Of a stretch of 64,000 nt of DNA, positions 3,605 to 11,163 are shown piece after piece. Made by a program: the position numbers and the translations under genes. How positions within the stretch are numbered: the stretch's first letter is position 1; each line of letters begins with the position of its first letter. Under the pieces are notes generated by a model that made no database searches, was not told the origin of the DNA, and saw only the letters and a list, made by a program, of their open reading frames with translations. The stretch is from Microbacterium terrisoli (lineage in GTDB: Bacteria; Actinomycetota; Actinomycetes; Actinomycetales; Microbacteriaceae), in the NCBI RefSeq assembly GCF_030866805.1, contig NZ_CP133019.1:1922001-1986000 (forward strand), written 5' to 3'.

Positions 3605-4651
3605 TCAGCCGCCGAAGGGCGCCCGGGTCGCGATCACGGTGATCATGCGCTCCAGCGCGAACACCGCGTCGCGTGAGGCGCCTTTGACATCGGCATCCGC
3701 TCGCGCCGTCGCCTGGATCGCCCGTCCCAGGCTCTGCTCGTTCCAGCCGTTCAGGTCGCGGCGGGCACGGTCGACCTGCCAGTCCTTCATCCCCACGTCG
3801 GCTGCGATGGCCGCCGACGATCCGCGCTTGCCCGCCACGCGCGCCATGGTGCGCAGCTTCATCGCGACGGCGGCCACCAGCGGCACCGGGTCGGCACCCG
3901 AAGCCAGCGCGTGTCGCAGCGCGATCAGCGCGTCGCCGTATCGCCCCGCGATCGCCGTGTCGGCGACGGTGAATGCCGACGTTTCGACGCGCCCGCCGTA
4001 ATAGCGGGTGATGACCTCGGTCGTGATGTCACCCGGTACATCGGCGATCAGCTGCTGGCAGGCGGCGGCCAGTTCTGTCAGATCATCGGTGAACGCGGCG
4101 ACCAGTGCCCGGAGCGCTGCCGGCGCGATCTTCTTGCGTGCTGCGTGGAATTCTCCGGCCGCGAAGTCCACACGGTCGCCGTCGCGCTTGACGGCAGGGC
4201 AGGGCACCTCGACTCCCCCACCGGTGCCTGCACGGATAGCGTCGAGCAGCTTCTTGCCGCGCACGGACGCGCCGGTGTGCCGCAGCAGCACGGTCGCGCC
4301 CTCCTGCGGGTGCCCGAGGTAGGCCAGCGCCTCGGTGAGGAACGCGTCAGTGGCCTTCTCGACCCCCGCCACCCGCACCAGACGCGGCTCGCCGAACAGC
4401 GACGGCGAGGACATCGCCATCAGCGTTCCCGCCTCGTAGTCGTCGGCGCGCAGGTCGGAGACCTCAAGGCTCGGGTCCTCGGCGCGCAGGTAGTCGCGCA
4501 CGCCGGCGATCGCCCGCTCTGCGCACACGTCTTCGGGCCCCGACACCAGCACGATCGGGGCCGGCTGCGGCGCGCGCCAGTCCAGCTGCGGGATCGCTGC
4601 GCGGCCGCCGGCGCCGCGCGACGTGCGGGCGGAGGTGCGGCGTGCAGGCAT
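3605..4651 (-). CDS. holA: DNA polymerase III subunit delta (intact copy)
   Basis: A 348-residue protein of the delta/HolA family, the clamp-loader subunit that opens the beta sliding clamp. The N-terminus has APIVLVSGPEDVCAERAI, resembling the P-loop-like start of delta subunits, followed by the conserved APALRALVAAFTDDL-type middle and a helical C-terminal collar domain (LRTMARVAGKRGSS). The length is normal for the family. The ATG at 4651 starts it. This is the complete copy. A second, truncated copy of its first 134 codons lies at 7724-8125, because the 5' half of the gene is inside a 945-bp direct repeat. Confidence 0.93.
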   Translation of the reverse strand: MPARRTSARTSRGAGGRAAIPQLDWRAPQPAPIVLVSGPEDVCAERAIAGVRDYLRAEDPSLEVSDLRADDYEAGTLMAMSSPSLFGEPRLVRVAGVEKATDAFLTEALAYLGHPQEGATVLLRHTGASVRGKKLLDAIRAGTGGGVEVPCPAVKRDGDRVDFAAGEFHAARKKIAPAALRALVAAFTDDLTELAAACQQLIADVPGDITTEVITRYYGGRVETSAFTVADTAIAGRYGDALIALRHALASGADPVPLVAAVAMKLRTMARVAGKRGSSAAIAADVGMKDWQVDRARRDLNGWNEQSLGRAIQATARADADVKGASRDAVFALERMITVIATRAPFGG

Positions 4652-5194
4652 GGTCCCAGCCTATCCAGCACCATCGACATCGTCGTTCGCATCATCGCCG
4701 CCGACGTGCGGTCGGCGCCCGGCACGGGGCCGGCGCCCCCGCTCACGACGGCCGCTCACGCCACACCCCGACCCCGTCGTGCGCGGGTGCGACCGTGACG
4801 ACACCGGAATGGTCGGTCCGCGCAATGACGTATCCGTCCGCGCGCAGAAAGGTCAGCGTCTTCTCGCGCGGATGACCGTAGTCGTTGCCGAGACCGACGG
4901 AGATCAGGGCCACCGCACCGGCCGCCGCACGGTACAGCTGGGGCGACTGGTCGGCCGAGCCGTGATGGGCGACTTTGACGACCGAGTACGGAGGCCGCAG
5001 CGCGCGCGTGCCCAGCAGAGCCCGCTGGGACGTGGCATCCAGGTCGGCGAGGAAGAGGGATGCCGGTACCCCGCCGCCACGCACGTCCCAGACGACACCG
5101 GCCTGGTTGCCCGCAGTGAACACCCGGTCCCCCTTCCGGGGCCACAGGACCGTCCAGGTCGCATCTCCGAGCCGCCCCGCCGTGCCGGCCCAGG
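4250..5194. repeat. 945-bp direct repeat, left copy (holA 5' half plus comEC 3' end)
   Basis: Bases 4250-5194 match 7724-8668 at a constant offset of 3474. I see seven substitutions, all between 4947 and 5164 (4947, 5079, 5082, 5114, 5135, 5163, 5164); the holA-side 697 bases look identical. The copy contains the first 134 codons of holA, the spacer and the last 150 or so codons of comEC. Outside the repeat the two copies diverge abruptly at both ends. Confidence 0.95.
4743..5194 (-). pseudogene. comEC: comEC 3' remnant
   Basis: This encodes only about the last 150 residues of ComEC, the end of its metallo-beta-lactamase domain (from the WTVLWP region to GVWRERPS). It is identical in protein sequence to the intact copy apart from a few changes such as TAGNQAG versus TSGNQAG. 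Its upstream part is replaced at 5194 by unrelated cassette DNA, so the motif HYDLDHVGG and all membrane segments are missing. No proper start or promoter is visible. It is best read as the by-product of the duplication, not a working gene. Confidence 0.9.
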
Positions 5195-5362
5195 TATGTA
5201 CTCGGTCGAATCGGGGTGATCGAGCCCTCCAGCGCGTCGATCTGGTGCTGCGTCAGGTTCACCGGACTTCGGACCTCGTACGGGCTAGAGTAAGGCACGA
5301 AGTCCCCGGCGAACGCCTCTGTCGAACTTGAGTCGGCACACAGCCGGGGTTTTTCTTTGCCA
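5195..5362 (-). pseudogene. unidentified coding fragment at cassette edge
   Basis: Between the comEC remnant and the next gene, one minus-strand frame reads sensibly for about 40 residues (including DFVPYSSPYEVRSPVNLTQ then HQIDALEGSITPI) before it runs out of frame into the comEC remnant at 5194. It looks like a piece of a gene carried by the incoming DNA and cut at the repeat boundary. I do not recognise a family. The 5304-5358 hairpin interrupts its upstream side. Confidence 0.35.
5304..5358 (+). terminator. hairpin with T-run inside the cassette
   Basis: CCCCGGC pairs with GCCGGGG across a 32-base loop and is followed directly by TTTTTCTTT. This is the only classical T-tract terminator I noticed in the window, and it points rightward. 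No convincing rightward gene ends here, so it may belong to a gene lost when the cassette was cut. Confidence 0.5.
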
Positions 5363-5944
5363 TCACCACGCCGGCAGCTTGCCATCGAGCCAGCGATGCT
5401 CCGGAGGAAGACCGACGCGGTCGCCCTCGGCCAGCCCGTGGTATCGCGCAGGGAGTAGCACAGGTGCATCGCCCTCGTCGCTGAACAGCAGATCCCACCG
5501 GTTCTCGTAGCTCTCGAAGGTCGGCAGATAGACCCGCGAGCTGCTCACCGGCGCATTGCGCTTGCCTTCGGGCACACCCTCTTCTGTCAGCCAGTCCATG
5601 TGCGCGATCCACGCGGCTGCGGCGACATGCGCGCGCGGGAGGACAAACAAGCGCGAGGCCAGCTCCAGGTCGCGGGGCACCGCGACCATGACGAAGTACT
5701 CGCGCTCGTGCGCGCTGGGCTTCTGTGACTTTTCACCCAGTGGCCAGTTCGTCTGCGACCAGCTGTGCGTTCGTGCGGTCTTCACCTGGACCTCGACCAT
5801 CCGTCGGTCCTCGCCGGTGTGCACAGCCAGGATGTCGGTGCGCTCAAGCCCGTCACGGGTGAGCGCCGGTGCCCAGCCGCGGCGCGCGAGCTCCGAGGCG
5901 ACGAGGTGCTCGCCGATGGTCTTGGTCTGCTTGGTGTCGGCCAT
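5363..5944 (-). CDS. PD-(D/E)XK-like (DUF4365-type) protein, possible nuclease
   Basis: About 193 residues from the ATG at 5944 (MADTKQTKTIGEHLVASELA). Starts at 5995 or 6103 are possible but add low-complexity sequence. The N-terminal half has the layout of a restriction-endonuclease-like fold: a helix GEHLVASELARRGW, then RTDILAVH with an Asp, then RRMVEVQVKTAR supplying E-x-Q-V-K. The second half contains a FVMVAVPR strand and a Trp-rich tail. In known families this fold cuts DNA or acts in repair or defence. Activity here is inference. It is the distal gene of the cassette, downstream of a membrane protein gene. Confidence 0.55.
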   Translation of the reverse strand: MADTKQTKTIGEHLVASELARRGWAPALTRDGLERTDILAVHTGEDRRMVEVQVKTARTHSWSQTNWPLGEKSQKPSAHEREYFVMVAVPRDLELASRLFVLPRAHVAAAAWIAHMDWLTEEGVPEGKRNAPVSSSRVYLPTFESYENRWDLLFSDEGDAPVLLPARYHGLAEGDRVGLPPEHRWLDGKLPAW

Positions 5945-6103
5945 GTGTCCGACTGTATCGACAGGGGCGGACGCGAGTGGCGCGATCGTCGTCATGCTGG
6001 CAGTTCCCTGTCTCGGAGCAGGCCGTCGGCGCCTGAGCGACGCCGAGCCTGCCGTCGATTGAGGCGCTACCACCGCTGATCCATAGAGCAGGACGTCGCC
6101 CAC

Positions 6104-7060
6104 TCACTTCTCGAGCTCGGGAGCGGCAATTGGGGCGTCATTCGGAACAGCGTCGCGTTTCTGCGGTTCTTTGCCCATCACAGCCGCACGTTCTGTTCGC
6201 ACCCGTTGATTTTGCAGTTCTCTCCCGGTGCGTTCCCTCTCTTTCAGGTTGCGTGCCTCTTCTCGCCTCTTGTACTCAGCCCTCAACTCCTCTGTGGTCT
6301 CTTTGATCACGTCGATCGTCGGAAACTGCGTCTCGCCAACGAACACGGCCTGATAGATTGCCTCGTTGCTTTCAGACGCCTTCGAAGTCGCGTCGCGGAG
6401 CAGTAGGATCACCGCCCCAATAGCGATCGGAACTGATATGAGATAGCCCCACCAGGGGGCACCAAGTCGTATTGGGATGAGAATCCCAATGAGGAGAATC
6501 GGGATGACTATGTTGTACCGGAACATGGCCTCTGCATCAGCACGGTCGTAACGGTCAAAAAGCTCACGGTGGTGCGCGAGCAGTCGCGTGGCGACCAAAG
6601 GGACGTCCTTCACCATGCCCTCGTATGCTGCTTCGATATCCTCCGTGCTGGGTTTTGCGGGATCACGGCTCATAAATTCGAGACTGAGGTCTCGCGAGTT
6701 CGAGACGTTCATTTTCGCCTGATTGCGGGCTCGTAGCGTCCGCTCGGCGAGCCTGTGTATCTGACTGTCCGTCGCATCGCTATACATATAGTTGGCGGCC
6801 GTCCTCAGCCGGTTGAGAATTGGATTCAGTATGGCGACCATCAGCATTCCAAGGAGATACGCGACGAATGTCACTGCAGCCGTCAGTCCGGCGGGTCCGA
6901 ATACGCCAAGGACCCGATATACCTCTGCCGCAAGCCCGGTAGCGCTTTCCTCGCTGGGGATCGCCGAGTAGAAGATGAGCCAAAGAACAACCAACCACAT
7001 GAAGCCCGCGGCGAGAGGAACGCGCACATCCCGTAGGCCGGGCAGCAGACTGGAAATCAT
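6104..7060 (-). CDS. membrane protein of unknown function (cassette)
   Basis: A 318-residue protein with a hydrophobic pair near residues 15-75 (GFMWLVVLWLIFYSA and a LTAAVTFVAYLLGMLMVAIL segment). A soluble loop of about 100 charged residues follows, then a second pair near 180-225 (IVIPILLIGILIPI; VPIAIGAVILLL) and a highly charged, coiled-coil-like tail rich in Glu/Arg/Lys. I do not recognise the family. The DNA is clearly less GC-rich than its neighbours, supporting foreign origin. It lies upstream of and in line with the nuclease-like gene, with a gap of about 160 bp. Confidence 0.7.
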   Translation of the reverse strand: MISSLLPGLRDVRVPLAAGFMWLVVLWLIFYSAIPSEESATGLAAEVYRVLGVFGPAGLTAAVTFVAYLLGMLMVAILNPILNRLRTAANYMYSDATDSQIHRLAERTLRARNQAKMNVSNSRDLSLEFMSRDPAKPSTEDIEAAYEGMVKDVPLVATRLLAHHRELFDRYDRADAEAMFRYNIVIPILLIGILIPIRLGAPWWGYLISVPIAIGAVILLLRDATSKASESNEAIYQAVFVGETQFPTIDVIKETTEELRAEYKRREEARNLKERERTGRELQNQRVRTERAAVMGKEPQKRDAVPNDAPIAAPELEK

Positions 7061-7093
7061 GCAGAAACCATAGCCCTAGGCGGTGAAGAGCCC

Positions 7094-7113
7094 GCCCCGG
7101 CTTGGAGCGGGGC
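7094..7113 (-). terminator. hairpin after the surface-protein remnant
   Basis: GCCCCG pairs with CGGGGC around an 8-base loop, 10 bases beyond the last in-frame stop (7124) of the surface-protein remnant read leftward. Confidence 0.5.
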
Positions 7114-7123
7114 CTGGTTCGGA

Positions 7124-7723
7124 TCAGTCGTCGTGCTCCTGCTTGCGACGTGCCAGCGGGACGATGCAGAGCGACACCGAGTGCGCAGGCTGTTCCGGCT
7201 ACGTCGACGCCTCGGGCTGAGTGAACTCAGCTTCAGGCTCATCCGGCTCAGTGACCGCGAGCTGTTGGGGCGCAGTCGTCGGTTTCGCGGTCGACGGCTC
7301 CTCAGGCTCCGGAGTGCACTCGGTGGTCGCGGGCTCCTCAGGGTCCTCTGGTTCCGGAGTGGGCTCGGTGACCACAGGCTCCGCGGGATCCGTCGGCTCA
7401 TCCGGCTCATCCACCGGAGGCGTCACCACGGGCTCGCACTCCTCGACGGCGGGGATCTAGATGGTCCACTCGGTCTGTGCACCCTCCTCGATCACGTAGC
7501 CGTCGTCAGCCGTGGCGGTCACCGTGATGGTGTCACCGTCGCGGGTCTGCTCGTGGACGACACCCTCCGTCTCCAGAGTGCTCACCGTCGCCTCGACATC
7601 GCACTCGTCTGCAGGGATCAGCTCGGGAGCTGAGGGGGTGACGCGCAGCAGCGACCGCGTCGCGGTATTGGTCACCGTGATCGCAGTCACGTCGTACTGC
7701 TGGCCGGAGACCGTCACCGTCGC
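7124..7723 (-). pseudogene. C-terminal remnant of a repeat-type surface protein, with two in-frame TAG codons
   Basis: Read leftward from 7723 the frame gives ATVTVSGQQYDVTAITVTN and later TVTATADDGYVIEEGAQTEW, a beta-rich segment of the kind found near the C-terminus of actinobacterial cell-surface proteins. A long Pro/Glu/Thr-rich stretch (units such as EPTPEPEDPEEP) follows, then a short basic tail ending RRKQEHDD. The frame is broken by TAG at 7457-7459 and again at 7199-7201, yet the composition continues unchanged across both. The N-terminus is missing; at 7723/7724 the frame joins, without a shift, the start of a truncated holA. Most simply this is a decaying gene fragment; stop-codon readthrough is possible but unproven. 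Confidence 0.6.
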
Positions 7724-8125
7724 CTTCTTGCCGCGCACGGACGCGCCGGTGTGCCGCAGCAGCACGGTCGCGCCCTCCTGCGGGTGCCCGAGGTAGGCCA
7801 GCGCCTCGGTGAGGAACGCGTCAGTGGCCTTCTCGACCCCCGCCACCCGCACCAGACGCGGCTCGCCGAACAGCGACGGCGAGGACATCGCCATCAGCGT
7901 TCCCGCCTCGTAGTCGTCGGCGCGCAGGTCGGAGACCTCAAGGCTCGGGTCCTCGGCGCGCAGGTAGTCGCGCACGCCGGCGATCGCCCGCTCTGCGCAC
8001 ACGTCTTCGGGCCCCGACACCAGCACGATCGGGGCCGGCTGCGGCGCGCGCCAGTCCAGCTGCGGGATCGCTGCGCGGCCGCCGGCGCCGCGCGACGTGC
8101 GGGCGGAGGTGCGGCGTGCAGGCAT
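7457..8125 (-). CDS. chimeric ORF: HolA residues 1-134 fused to surface-protein fragment
   Basis: This open frame starts at the holA ATG (8125) of the right-hand repeat copy, encodes 134 HolA residues up to VRGKK, then runs in frame into 88 foreign residues and stops at TAG 7457. The HolA part lacks the C-terminal collar domain, so it cannot act as a clamp-loader subunit; intact holA is at 3605-4651. Because the natural holA upstream region is duplicated too, the chimera may be transcribed. A product interfering with the clamp loader is conceivable but is speculation. Most likely it is an accident of integration. Confidence 0.6.
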   Translation of the reverse strand: MPARRTSARTSRGAGGRAAIPQLDWRAPQPAPIVLVSGPEDVCAERAIAGVRDYLRAEDPSLEVSDLRADDYEAGTLMAMSSPSLFGEPRLVRVAGVEKATDAFLTEALAYLGHPQEGATVLLRHTGASVRGKKATVTVSGQQYDVTAITVTNTATRSLLRVTPSAPELIPADECDVEATVSTLETEGVVHEQTRDGDTITVTATADDGYVIEEGAQTEWTI

Positions 8126-8668
8126 GGTCCCAGCCTATCCAGCACCATCGACATCGTCGTTCGCATCATCGCCGCCGACGTGCGGTCGGCGCCCGGCACG
8201 GGGCCGGCGCCCCCGCTCACGACGGCCGCTCACGCCACACCCCGACCCCGTCGTGCGCGGGTGCGACCGTGACGACACCGGAATGGTCGGTCCGCGCAAT
8301 GACGTATCCGTCCGCGCGCAGAAAGGTCAGCGTCTTCTCGCGCGGATGACCGTAGTCGTTGCCGAGACCGACGGAGATCAGGGCCACCGCACCGGCCGCC
8401 GCACGGTACAGCTGGGGCGATTGGTCGGCCGAGCCGTGATGGGCGACTTTGACGACCGAGTACGGAGGCCGCAGCGCGCGCGTGCCCAGCAGAGCCCGCT
8501 GGGACGTGGCATCCAGGTCGGCGAGGAAGAGGGATGCCGGTACCCCGCCGCCGCGGACGTCCCAGACGACACCGGCCTGGTTGCCCGAAGTGAACACCCG
8601 GTCCCCCTCCCGGGGCCACAGGACCGTCCAGGTCGCGCCTCCGAGCCGCCCCGCCGTGCCGGCCCAGG
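7724..8668. repeat. 945-bp direct repeat, right copy
   Basis: Counterpart of 4250-5194 (offset 3474). It carries the truncated holA 5' half and the 3' end of the intact comEC. Together with the left copy it frames 2529 bp of unique cassette DNA (5195-7723); cassette plus one repeat is a 3474-bp unit. Confidence 0.95.
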
Positions 8669-10541
8669 CGTCCACCACCTGCGCGCCACCACCGGCCAGC
8701 CGCGCGAGCGTGCGCCGATCGGTCGCCGAAGCGGGCGGCCCGTGCAGCACGATGTCCGCACGTCCGATGACCGCATCCACTCCGCCGACGTGGTCGAGGT
8801 CGTAGTGGGTGAGCACAAGGATGTCGATCCGCTCTATGCCGAATCTGTCCAGGCACGCTCGCAGCGCACCGGGGTCCGGCCCGGTGTCGATGAGGGCCAC
8901 CGCCGATGCAGAACGCACGAGCAAGGCGTCGCCCTGACCGACATCGCACGCTGCGATCGCCCACGTGCCCGGCAGGGTCAACGGTCCCACTGCCGCGCGC
9001 AGCGCCGCCGATCCGCCGCCCACTCCCAGCACCACGGCCATCAGCAACGCCGATGCGGCGCGAACAGCGCGCTGCCCGCGTCGGTGCCCGGGCGGCAGGA
9101 TCAGCACCCCGATGGCTGCCCCCACAACCGCAAGGAGCACTGCTCCGGGCCATCCTTCGATCCACGGCACGGCGCTCGCCGGCAGATCGACCGATGTCGC
9201 GGCGACCGCGGCGATCCACGCGGCCGGCACCCAGGTCAGAGCCACCAGTCCCGATGCGAGCAGCGGAATCGGCGCCGCCAGGCAGGCGGCCAGCCCCAGC
9301 ACGGTGGCCACGGGTGCCGCCGGTGCGGCGAGCAGGTTCGCGATCACGCCGTACAGCGGCACGGTGGGATTGATCACGATCAGCAGCGGCCCGCACGCCA
9401 GCTGCGCGGCCAACGGCACCGCCAGGGCCAGGGCCAGCGCGCGCGGCAGGCGCCTGCTCAGACCGCGGGTCAGCGGTGCCGCCAGTGTCAGCAGCGCCGC
9501 CGTGGCCACCACCGACAGCGCGAACCCCATCGAGGCGGCAAGCCACGGGTCGGCCACCACGCACACCACGACCGCTGCACACAGCAGCGACAGCCCGGCC
9601 CCGCGCCGCCCCAGCAGCACGCCGAGCATCGCGATGGCCGCCATGGCGGCGGCGCGCACCACGCTCGGCTCGGGTGTGACCAGCAGCACGAAGCCACCGA
9701 GGGCCAGCATCCCGACCCCCACGCGCACGCTGCGTCGAGCGCCGCAGAGTGCTGCCGCACCGAAGGCGAGCCCGACCACGATCGCGCAGTTGGCCCCCGA
9801 GACCGCCGTCAGATGCGAGAGCGAACTGGCCTTCATCTGAGAGTCGAGTTCGACGCTGACTCCCCCCGTGTCGCCGACGGCGAGCCCGGGAATCAGGCCT
9901 GCACCGGGCTGGGGCAGCCCCCGAGTCGCCCGCGCGAGCGCATGCCGCAGCTGTGCCGACACCGCCACGACGCCCGTCGGTGCGCGTGCGAGCGCCACGG
10001 CATCCCCGGCGCGCACGACCAGCACCGCGCGCTGGCCGGGCATGGACTGCGCCGCCGTACCCCGCACGACGATCTCGCTGCCGACGTCCGGTGCGGTGTG
10101 CGCGTCGCCGTCCCGAATCGACACCGGGACCTCGATCGTGTGTGGCGTCGGCCCGACGTCGATGCGGTGCGCGACCGCGTCGTACATGAGGTCGCCGCGG
10201 GCGGTGCGCTGCGCCTTGCCGACGACGCTCGCGTGCACGGTGATCGCGCGTCCGCCGTCGACGGCGAGCTCGACGGCCGCTGTGCGCTGCGGCAGGGCGA
10301 GAGCCGCAGAGGACGCCGCGGCTGCGGCGATCGCGGCTGTCACGGCTGCGATCGCCCACAGACCGGGCCCGTGCCGGTGCGTTCCCCTGGCCCACCATGC
10401 GGCCCACACGGTGAGCACCAGCGCCGCTGCCCACAGCACGATCGCCATCACCGCTGCCACATCCGCAACCAGCACCACCACCCCCGCGGCCGCCCACGCA
10501 GCAGCGGCGATCGGCACCGGACGAAGATCGCGCGCCCTCAC
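8217..10541 (-). CDS. comEC: ComEC/Rec2 DNA-uptake channel (intact copy)
   Basis: A 774-residue membrane protein forming the channel that moves single-stranded DNA across the membrane in natural transformation. An N-terminal hydrophobic pair and soluble OB-like region are followed by a central multi-helix competence domain (AVSGANCAIVVGLAFG and many later helices). The C-terminal metallo-beta-lactamase-like domain has ILVLTHYDLDHVGG near residue 553 (H-x-D-x-D-H) and a second metal motif in KVAHHGSADQS. I start it at the GTG at 10541, one base after the comEA stop; a start at 10586 would run deep into comEA. Together with comEA this suggests transformation capacity, though other machinery is not in the window. 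Confidence 0.93.
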   Translation of the reverse strand: MRARDLRPVPIAAAAWAAAGVVVLVADVAAVMAIVLWAAALVLTVWAAWWARGTHRHGPGLWAIAAVTAAIAAAAASSAALALPQRTAAVELAVDGGRAITVHASVVGKAQRTARGDLMYDAVAHRIDVGPTPHTIEVPVSIRDGDAHTAPDVGSEIVVRGTAAQSMPGQRAVLVVRAGDAVALARAPTGVVAVSAQLRHALARATRGLPQPGAGLIPGLAVGDTGGVSVELDSQMKASSLSHLTAVSGANCAIVVGLAFGAAALCGARRSVRVGVGMLALGGFVLLVTPEPSVVRAAAMAAIAMLGVLLGRRGAGLSLLCAAVVVCVVADPWLAASMGFALSVVATAALLTLAAPLTRGLSRRLPRALALALAVPLAAQLACGPLLIVINPTVPLYGVIANLLAAPAAPVATVLGLAACLAAPIPLLASGLVALTWVPAAWIAAVAATSVDLPASAVPWIEGWPGAVLLAVVGAAIGVLILPPGHRRGQRAVRAASALLMAVVLGVGGGSAALRAAVGPLTLPGTWAIAACDVGQGDALLVRSASAVALIDTGPDPGALRACLDRFGIERIDILVLTHYDLDHVGGVDAVIGRADIVLHGPPASATDRRTLARLAGGGAQVVDAWAGTAGRLGGATWTVLWPREGDRVFTSGNQAGVVWDVRGGGVPASLFLADLDATSQRALLGTRALRPPYSVVKVAHHGSADQSPQLYRAAAGAVALISVGLGNDYGHPREKTLTFLRADGYVIARTDHSGVVTVAPAHDGVGVWRERPS

Positions 10542-10542
10542 G

Positions 10543-11163
10543 TCACACCGTGACCAGATCGCGCAGCGACGCCAGCATCTTCTCACCGATGCCGGGCACC
10601 GCGAGGAGGTCTTCGACGCTGGTGAACCGGCCGTTCTGGGTGCGCCAGTCGATGATGCGCTGGGCGATCGCGGGCCCGACGCGCGGCAGCGAGTCGAGGG
10701 CGGCAGCGTCGGCGGTGTTCAGGTTCACCTTGCCGGCCGGGTGCGCGCCCGCGCCGACGGCGGGACCGGATGCCGCACCGCCTGCCGTCGCGGGCGGCGC
10801 CTCGCCTTTGCGGGGCACGATGACCTGCTCGCCGTCGGCCACCGGGCGAGCGAGGTTCACGCCGTCGCGCGCAGCATCCTTGGCGAAGCCGCCCGCAGCT
10901 GCCACCGCGTCCACCAGGCGGGCTGCCGCCGGCAGCACATACAGTCCTGGCTTGCGCACGGCCCCCGACACGTGCACGTACACGGCCACGCTCGCCGACG
11001 GTGTCGGCCGAGCGGTGACCGCCACCTCTTGCGTGGGCGCGGATCGTCCACGCAGGATGCCGATGCCCACCGTCACGGCGAGGGCGACCAGCATCACCAC
11101 GATCACCGCACCCAGGCCCAATCGCCGCCGCGGCGAGAGCGGAGGCGGCGACTCGGTGGACAC
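10543..11163 (-). CDS. comEA: ComEA DNA-binding competence protein
   Basis: A 206-residue protein with a single N-terminal membrane anchor (LGAVIVVMLVALAVTVGIGI) and an extracellular SLBB-like domain (VYVHVSGAVRKPGLYVLP, then VADGEQVIVP). The C-terminal double helix-hairpin-helix is VNLNTADAAALDSLPRVGP, RFTSVEDLLAVPGIGEKML. The HhH repeats bind double-stranded DNA at the cell surface and pass it to ComEC. It starts at a GTG at 11163. comEC follows after one base, so the two are co-translated. Confidence 0.95.
   Translation of the reverse strand: MSTESPPPLSPRRRLGLGAVIVVMLVALAVTVGIGILRGRSAPTQEVAVTARPTPSASVAVYVHVSGAVRKPGLYVLPAAARLVDAVAAAGGFAKDAARDGVNLARPVADGEQVIVPRKGEAPPATAGGAASGPAVGAGAHPAGKVNLNTADAAALDSLPRVGPAIAQRIIDWRTQNGRFTSVEDLLAVPGIGEKMLASLRDLVTV

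Follow-up and report, generated by a model that had tools for sequence, protein, structure and literature searches.

Introduction

The best described counterpart of the locus reported here comes from Escherichia coli, into which a cut, non-replicating plasmid (pJA2) was introduced under selection for a marker. In that study, 56 of 60 atypical integrants gave a polymerase chain reaction product indicating partial duplication of the homologous locus, and 14 sequenced integrants had 109–950 base pairs (bp) duplicated (PMC3240628). Its authors concluded that a single crossover had taken place with a circular molecule lacking part of the homology, and they considered degradation followed by re-circularisation the likelier cause of that loss; the remaining 4 of the 60 were homology-facilitated illegitimate events with deletions (PMC3240628). 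The same source treats homology-facilitated illegitimate recombination in Streptococcus pneumoniae, Acinetobacter baylyi and Pseudomonas stutzeri, in which foreign DNA without mobile genes enters through one-sided homology, generally leaving a deletion at the join (PMC3240628). In this study, we analysed a stretch of 64,000 nucleotides from Microbacterium terrisoli (assembly GCF_030866805.1, contig NZ_CP133019.1, positions 1,922,001 to 1,986,000, forward strand; hereafter the window, numbered from its first letter), in which the junction of holA (DNA polymerase III delta) and comEC is present twice, on either side of a foreign insert.

We read this locus as an insertion-duplication in which a chimeric, non-mobile DNA segment entered by a single crossover, and we put the probability of this reading at roughly 0.6. 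The event is a natural example of a type that is already known, real but ordinary in kind. Like the pJA2 integrants, it shows a partial direct duplication beside non-homologous DNA, and its 945 bp compare with the 109–950 bp of the E. coli cases. Unlike those products of a laboratory plasmid with a selected marker, it lies in a chromosome of unrecorded history and consists of apparently random fragments with no vector-like gene (PMC3240628). The Microbacterium case resembles the duplication class of the E. coli integrants rather than the deletion class. A literature search for single-crossover insertions in natural isolates found nothing on point among the papers listed, as judged by titles and abstract openings.

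Structure of the duplicated holA–comEC locus

Two direct repeats of 945 bp each (4250..5194 and 7724..8668) stand at an offset of 3474 bp and are identical at 938 of 945 positions, their identity breaking off sharply at either end. They enclose a foreign insert of 2529 bp (5195..7723), present in a single copy in the genome, whose guanine-plus-cytosine (GC) content is 62.9% against 73.4 and 73.7% in the repeat copies. The left copy consists of the 5′ part of holA, 91 bp of intergenic DNA and a 3′ stub of comEC (4743–5194), and the right copy of a 5′ stub of holA (7724–8125), the intergenic stretch and the 3′ end of the intact comEC. The intact holA (3605..4651, minus strand) encodes 348 amino acids and has its first 402 bp inside the left repeat copy; the intact comEC (8217..10553, or 8217..10586 from the first listed start, minus strand) encodes 778 amino acids from the start used and 789 from the first listed one. 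The gene order is reciprocal, with whole holA and partial comEC on the left, and partial holA and whole comEC on the right. A preliminary description of this DNA, made from its letters, had proposed such a repeat around 2529 bp of unrelated DNA, this gene order and the survival of both functions. Its coordinates and gene order agree with ours, and both genes are whole; the seven mismatches between the copies went unreported there, and so did the broken genes at the two edges of the insert. From left to right, the insert holds the cut start of an Abi_2-like gene, a 63-bp stem-loop element, two intact genes (of 193 and 318 codons) and the cut end of a surface-protein gene.

When the genome (one contig of 3,625,519 bp) was searched with 4250–8668, only the site itself and one 75-bp match of 77% identity were returned, and there was no second copy of the insert. 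The 75-bp match was set aside: it falls within an open frame unrelated to the locus, and in GC-rich DNA such similarity is probably due to chance. A megablast self-comparison (word 24) of 464 kb around the site, or 12.8% of the chromosome, found five repeat pairs that reach 100 bp and 85% identity. Since the other four all sit within two short tandem arrays, the 945-bp repeat is not a chance occurrence.

The corresponding site is empty in relatives. The relative loci read number 23, from 21 distinct genomes, all of other species; in every one, comEC and holA occur once each, adjoining and in order; none of the 23 has the repeat-insert-repeat arrangement, and no relative of the Abi-like fragment, the 193-codon gene or the 318-codon gene was found in them. 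The preliminary description had allowed for relatives that carry the cassette here without the duplication, and none of the 23, each with an empty single-copy site, is of that kind. The closest comEC genes among the 20 relative loci returned by the search belong to M. elymi (72%) and M. luticocti (68%); in M. elymi, comEC and holA were each matched in two pieces. A search with the repeat in 149 genomes, the own one included, matched 147, and among the matches listed only the own genome has two full-length matches. In four of the 20 loci (L101, L105, L109 and L110), the two genes stand about 1.9 kb apart, and the intervening DNA has an open stretch of 384–395 codons, from stop to stop, on the plus strand; the holA–comEC junction therefore tolerates insertions. 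As a separate observation, genome G128 (contig C32, 81991–85453) has its holA and comEC matches on opposite strands about 3 kb apart, which suggests a local rearrangement.

The preliminary description had also remarked on the coincidence that DNA was picked up next to a competence gene. We give this no weight: comEC is the neighbour of holA in all 23 loci read, and any fragment from here would therefore contain comEC anyway. The position beside comEC is probably a coincidence.

Origin of the insert and proposed mechanism

Pfam was run on four frames of the insert, and PADLOC and NCBIfam on three of these. In these four frames, no replication, mobilisation/transfer, integrase or transposase family scored over cut-off; the integrase, transposase, replication or transfer gene of its own that would mark the insert as an integrative mobile element was thus not among them. 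Searches of phages gave no DNA match to the insert and no protein match for the 193-codon gene, and viral contigs yielded no confirmed relative for either of the two intact proteins. In plasmids, no DNA match spans the whole 3474-bp unit; two records match in part, in the holA portion and the 193-codon gene. At the protein level, relatives of the 318-residue protein occur in three Streptomyces plasmids (32% identity), and a relative of the 193-residue protein in one Frondihabitans plasmid (54%). We rejected a plasmid or phage source: the plasmid matches were to parts only, and the phage searches gave none.

A DNA search with 4743–7723 at E 1e-15 in the genus set (366 genomes, own included) found the 193-codon gene in 13 other genomes and the 63-bp element in two, and nothing for the 318-codon gene or the surface-protein tail. 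At E 0.001, the insert has matches in 28 of 149 genomes, mainly over stretches shorter than 60 bp. Among 38 relative loci tested for insert pieces, mostly 2–4 kb long and some overlapping, 37 match one piece and none holds two different pieces. The relatives of the two intact cargo genes within the genus likewise sit in separate places, in genomes G094 and G047.

Several features are those expected of a single crossover: chromosomal direct repeats flank non-homologous DNA, whole and partial genes are reciprocal, and the empty site in relatives has one copy. In the mechanism that we propose as the simplest history, two broken fragments would first have been ligated at their ends: some 945 bp of holA–comEC, from the same strain or one closely related to it, and 2.5 kb of an accessory region of Microbacterium type. 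A single homologous exchange within holA–comEC would then insert the resulting 3474-bp unit into the chromosome; the same product would follow from a short-lived ligated molecule or from joining the ends directly. The insert edges and the repeat ends all lie inside genes, as expected of random breaks. Ku is encoded in the genome (176 bits, cut-off 25), and some 1.7 kb away there is a ligase domain of LigD type (257 bits, cut-off 228). We infer that the joining preceded the crossover, that a ligated circle took part and that Ku/LigD made the joints. The Campbell-type integration suggested in the preliminary description stands as regards its single-crossover topology, and is not supported as regards a natural replicating circle: the four scanned frames show no mobile-element gene over cut-off, and the searches made found no such phage or plasmid unit. 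How such a circle might have acquired a piece of holA and comEC was a puzzle in that description; a simpler reading is that one broken fragment was joined to another.

On the other hand, some points weigh against this interpretation. The literature search found nothing on natural competence in Microbacterium. The GC content of the 318-codon gene differs from that of its neighbours, so the insert itself may consist of more than one fragment. Finally, an evenly divergent donor segment on a circle predicts mismatches across the whole repeat, whereas none is seen in its first 697 bp and seven in its last 248 bp; the simple circle model would therefore require that the donor was a mosaic, that the heteroduplex at the crossover was repaired or that gene conversion followed.

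Differences between the repeat copies and competing explanations

The only seven mismatches between the copies (4947, 5079, 5082, 5114, 5135, 5163 and 5164) all fall in the span 4947..5164. They touch six codons, with three silent and three amino-acid changes and no stop. If mismatches were uniform, the probability of all seven lying in the last 248 bp would be 8.6e-5. Block rates estimated from six relative loci, of which two have the same counts and apparently represent a single genome, bring it to between 2.4e-4 and 4.9e-4. The bases were also compared with 33 relative rows, which include some duplicate genomes and one row that is blank at 5135. The stub carries the commoner of the two bases at three sites (5164, 5114 and 4947) and the intact gene at four (5163, 5135, 5082 and 5079); at 4947, the base shared by most relatives (28 of 33 rows) is that of the stub, not that of the intact gene. 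Although the sample is small, these bases agree better with two natural alleles than with decay of a dead stub, and the clustering suggests recombination between two alleles; under such a reading the crossover between the alleles would lie at or left of 4947. No same-species strain that could polarise the alleles was seen; among the best 120 of 1383 matches, the closest other holA proteins are 86–87% identical over the shared 60%.

The same pattern bears on an unlikely but serious competitor, one-sided homologous recombination. Here a linear donor with a comEC end and foreign DNA would recombine on one side and have its other end joined directly to holA at 4250, with no circle; or the whole arrangement would have formed in a different strain, from which ordinary recombination brought it here. 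Either version directly predicts identity up to the crossover point and divergence from there to the foreign joint, and fits the finding that the stub bases at the seven sites look as natural as the intact ones (commoner at three against four). The parallel with homology-facilitated illegitimate recombination extends to foreign DNA without mobile genes and to homology on one side. However, such recombination as published generally leaves a deletion rather than a duplication, and in most of the cases from competent species it involves 3–10 bp of microhomology (PMC3240628). At the present locus, nothing was lost: holA and comEC are complete and sequence is duplicated, a deletion at the illegitimate joint being a general and not an invariable mark. 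As for microhomology, none is established at these joints; the base at 5194 may be assigned to either side, and at most a few bases can be shared. The final sequence cannot tell one-sided entry from the ligated circle.

A tandem duplication of a larger holA–comEC stretch that came first, with foreign DNA then replacing the redundant middle, would give the same topology, and redundant copies would tolerate such a loss. This order of events needs two independent steps and would have the seven mismatches arise afterwards, by mutation of the free copy, while gene conversion kept the remainder identical. Mutations in a free stub should spread evenly, whereas the clustering has the small probabilities given above, and the stub holds the common base at 4947; we therefore regard it as improbable. 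In another model, replication or break repair would have switched templates, jumping from comEC onto a foreign molecule and returning to holA at a point 945 bp back. In its favour, a single event yields repeat, insert and repeat without long homology, in keeping with the few bases at most that can be shared at the joints, but the copies would be identical at the start and the clustered mismatches would require further events, which makes it very doubtful. An assembly error or chimeric library molecule is equally hard to credit, given a single contig that is 100% complete with 0.54% contamination, copies told apart by seven mismatches, the lack of any other such pair in 464 kb, and an insert gene that evolved under selection.

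Because the copies share a stretch of 697 bp without a mismatch, the unit would be expected to recombine out of the chromosome with some frequency.

Genes and gene fragments of the insert

At the left edge, the comEC joint cuts an Abi_2-like gene, leaving only its opening 23 codons, from the GTG start onwards (5195..5262, minus strand). Counted by eye, 11 of the 23 residues are common with a gene of genome G043, and likewise with one of genome G208. The name is tentative because the G043 protein scores 23.0 bits against Pfam Abi_2, below the 25.6 cut-off. Just upstream of this start lies the 63-bp stem-loop element (5299..5361, minus strand), which is 89–90% identical in G043 and G208 (element at L007 1501–1563 and L145 1746–1808), where it precedes the full Abi-like genes. 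Its predicted fold has an energy of −28.5 kcal/mol (z −2.18), with 7 of 200 shuffles as good, and an Rfam search of the window's element gave no match. Abi_2/AbiF systems with an associated RNA have been described (PMC12373285), and the left edge of the insert is similar in pairing a stem-loop with 23 Abi_2-like codons. Unlike those systems, the insert holds only a gene fragment, its element has no Rfam match and the relative falls below the Abi_2 cut-off. By this analogy, the element could be an uncatalogued RNA partner of the Abi-like protein.

The intact gene of 193 codons (5363..5944, minus strand) appears to be of PD-(D/E)XK type. Residues D37, E51, Q53 and K55 are invariant across 24 aligned sequences, and they fit the conserved D ... 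(E/Q)xK core, which we take to be the motif of the PD-(D/E)XK nuclease superfamily. Some relatives are named PD(D/E)XK endonuclease domain protein in UniRef; the protein has no match in Pfam, PADLOC, NCBIfam or the sequences of the Protein Data Bank. Its DNA is 89% identical to that of the G094 relative. Over 192 codons, the two genes differ at 43 codons silently and at 16 with a change of amino acid, an excess of silent changes which indicates that it evolved as a working gene, under selection. A DUF4839 gene adjoins the relative in G094, and a 62% identical relative of that DUF4839 gene adjoins the Abi-like gene in G208, so that a recurrent accessory neighbourhood with a DUF4839-type gene is possible. 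The Abi-like and 193-codon genes seem, from these gene neighbours, to come from one kind of accessory neighbourhood. DUF4839-type neighbourhoods were seen at L145 991–2630, beside an Abi-like gene, and at L064 6203–7627, beside a PD-(D/E)XK gene.

The second intact gene encodes a membrane-type protein of 318 residues (6104..7060, minus strand). Its third-position GC content is 65%, against 83–87% in holA, comEC and the 193-codon gene, and a separate origin is therefore possible for this gene. No family in the Pfam, PADLOC and NCBIfam profile libraries matched it above cut-off, the weak NCBIfam matches being 'mobilome CxxCx(11)CxxC' (15.9 bits, cut-off 70) and PspD (13.5 bits, cut-off 79); among solved structures, only two unconvincing matches to its family were found (E 0.62 and 0.78). 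Its relatives number 37 proteins, itself included, and occur in 6 of 247 genus genomes, the own one included; the relative in G047 is 45% identical. Within L067 2820–8331, that relative lies between a gene with an NPHP3_N/NACHT-like match and a SMODS nucleotidyltransferase gene, a defence-like setting. A known defence family for the cargo genes was considered and dropped, none being found in PADLOC.

At the right edge, the 3′ remnant of a surface-protein gene (7199..7723, minus strand) is cut at the holA joint and has an in-frame TAG at 7457–7459. A 222-codon open frame (7457..8125, minus strand) results there, in which holA residues 1–134 are fused in frame to the remnant. Relatives of the surface-protein tail occur in 2 of 247 genus genomes and in 10 of 299 genomes of a family sample, the own genome included in both.

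Implications for gene gain in actinobacteria

Many foreign genes come on self-moving elements; the scar described here is clean and made of what look like random fragments, two whole genes lying amid broken ones. It illustrates that stray DNA can enter a chromosome with just a short homologous piece attached, and the allele change within the repeat helps to map the crossover. It is possible, and we put this forward tentatively, that intact accessory genes were gained in this way by an actinobacterium equipped with Ku/LigD end joining: unrelated fragments would have been ligated to a homologous piece of chromosome that served as the handle for a single crossover, with no mobile element involved, and the result would have been frozen before its repeat-mediated removal. 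The locus could be used for asking whether end joining feeds gene gain in actinobacteria.

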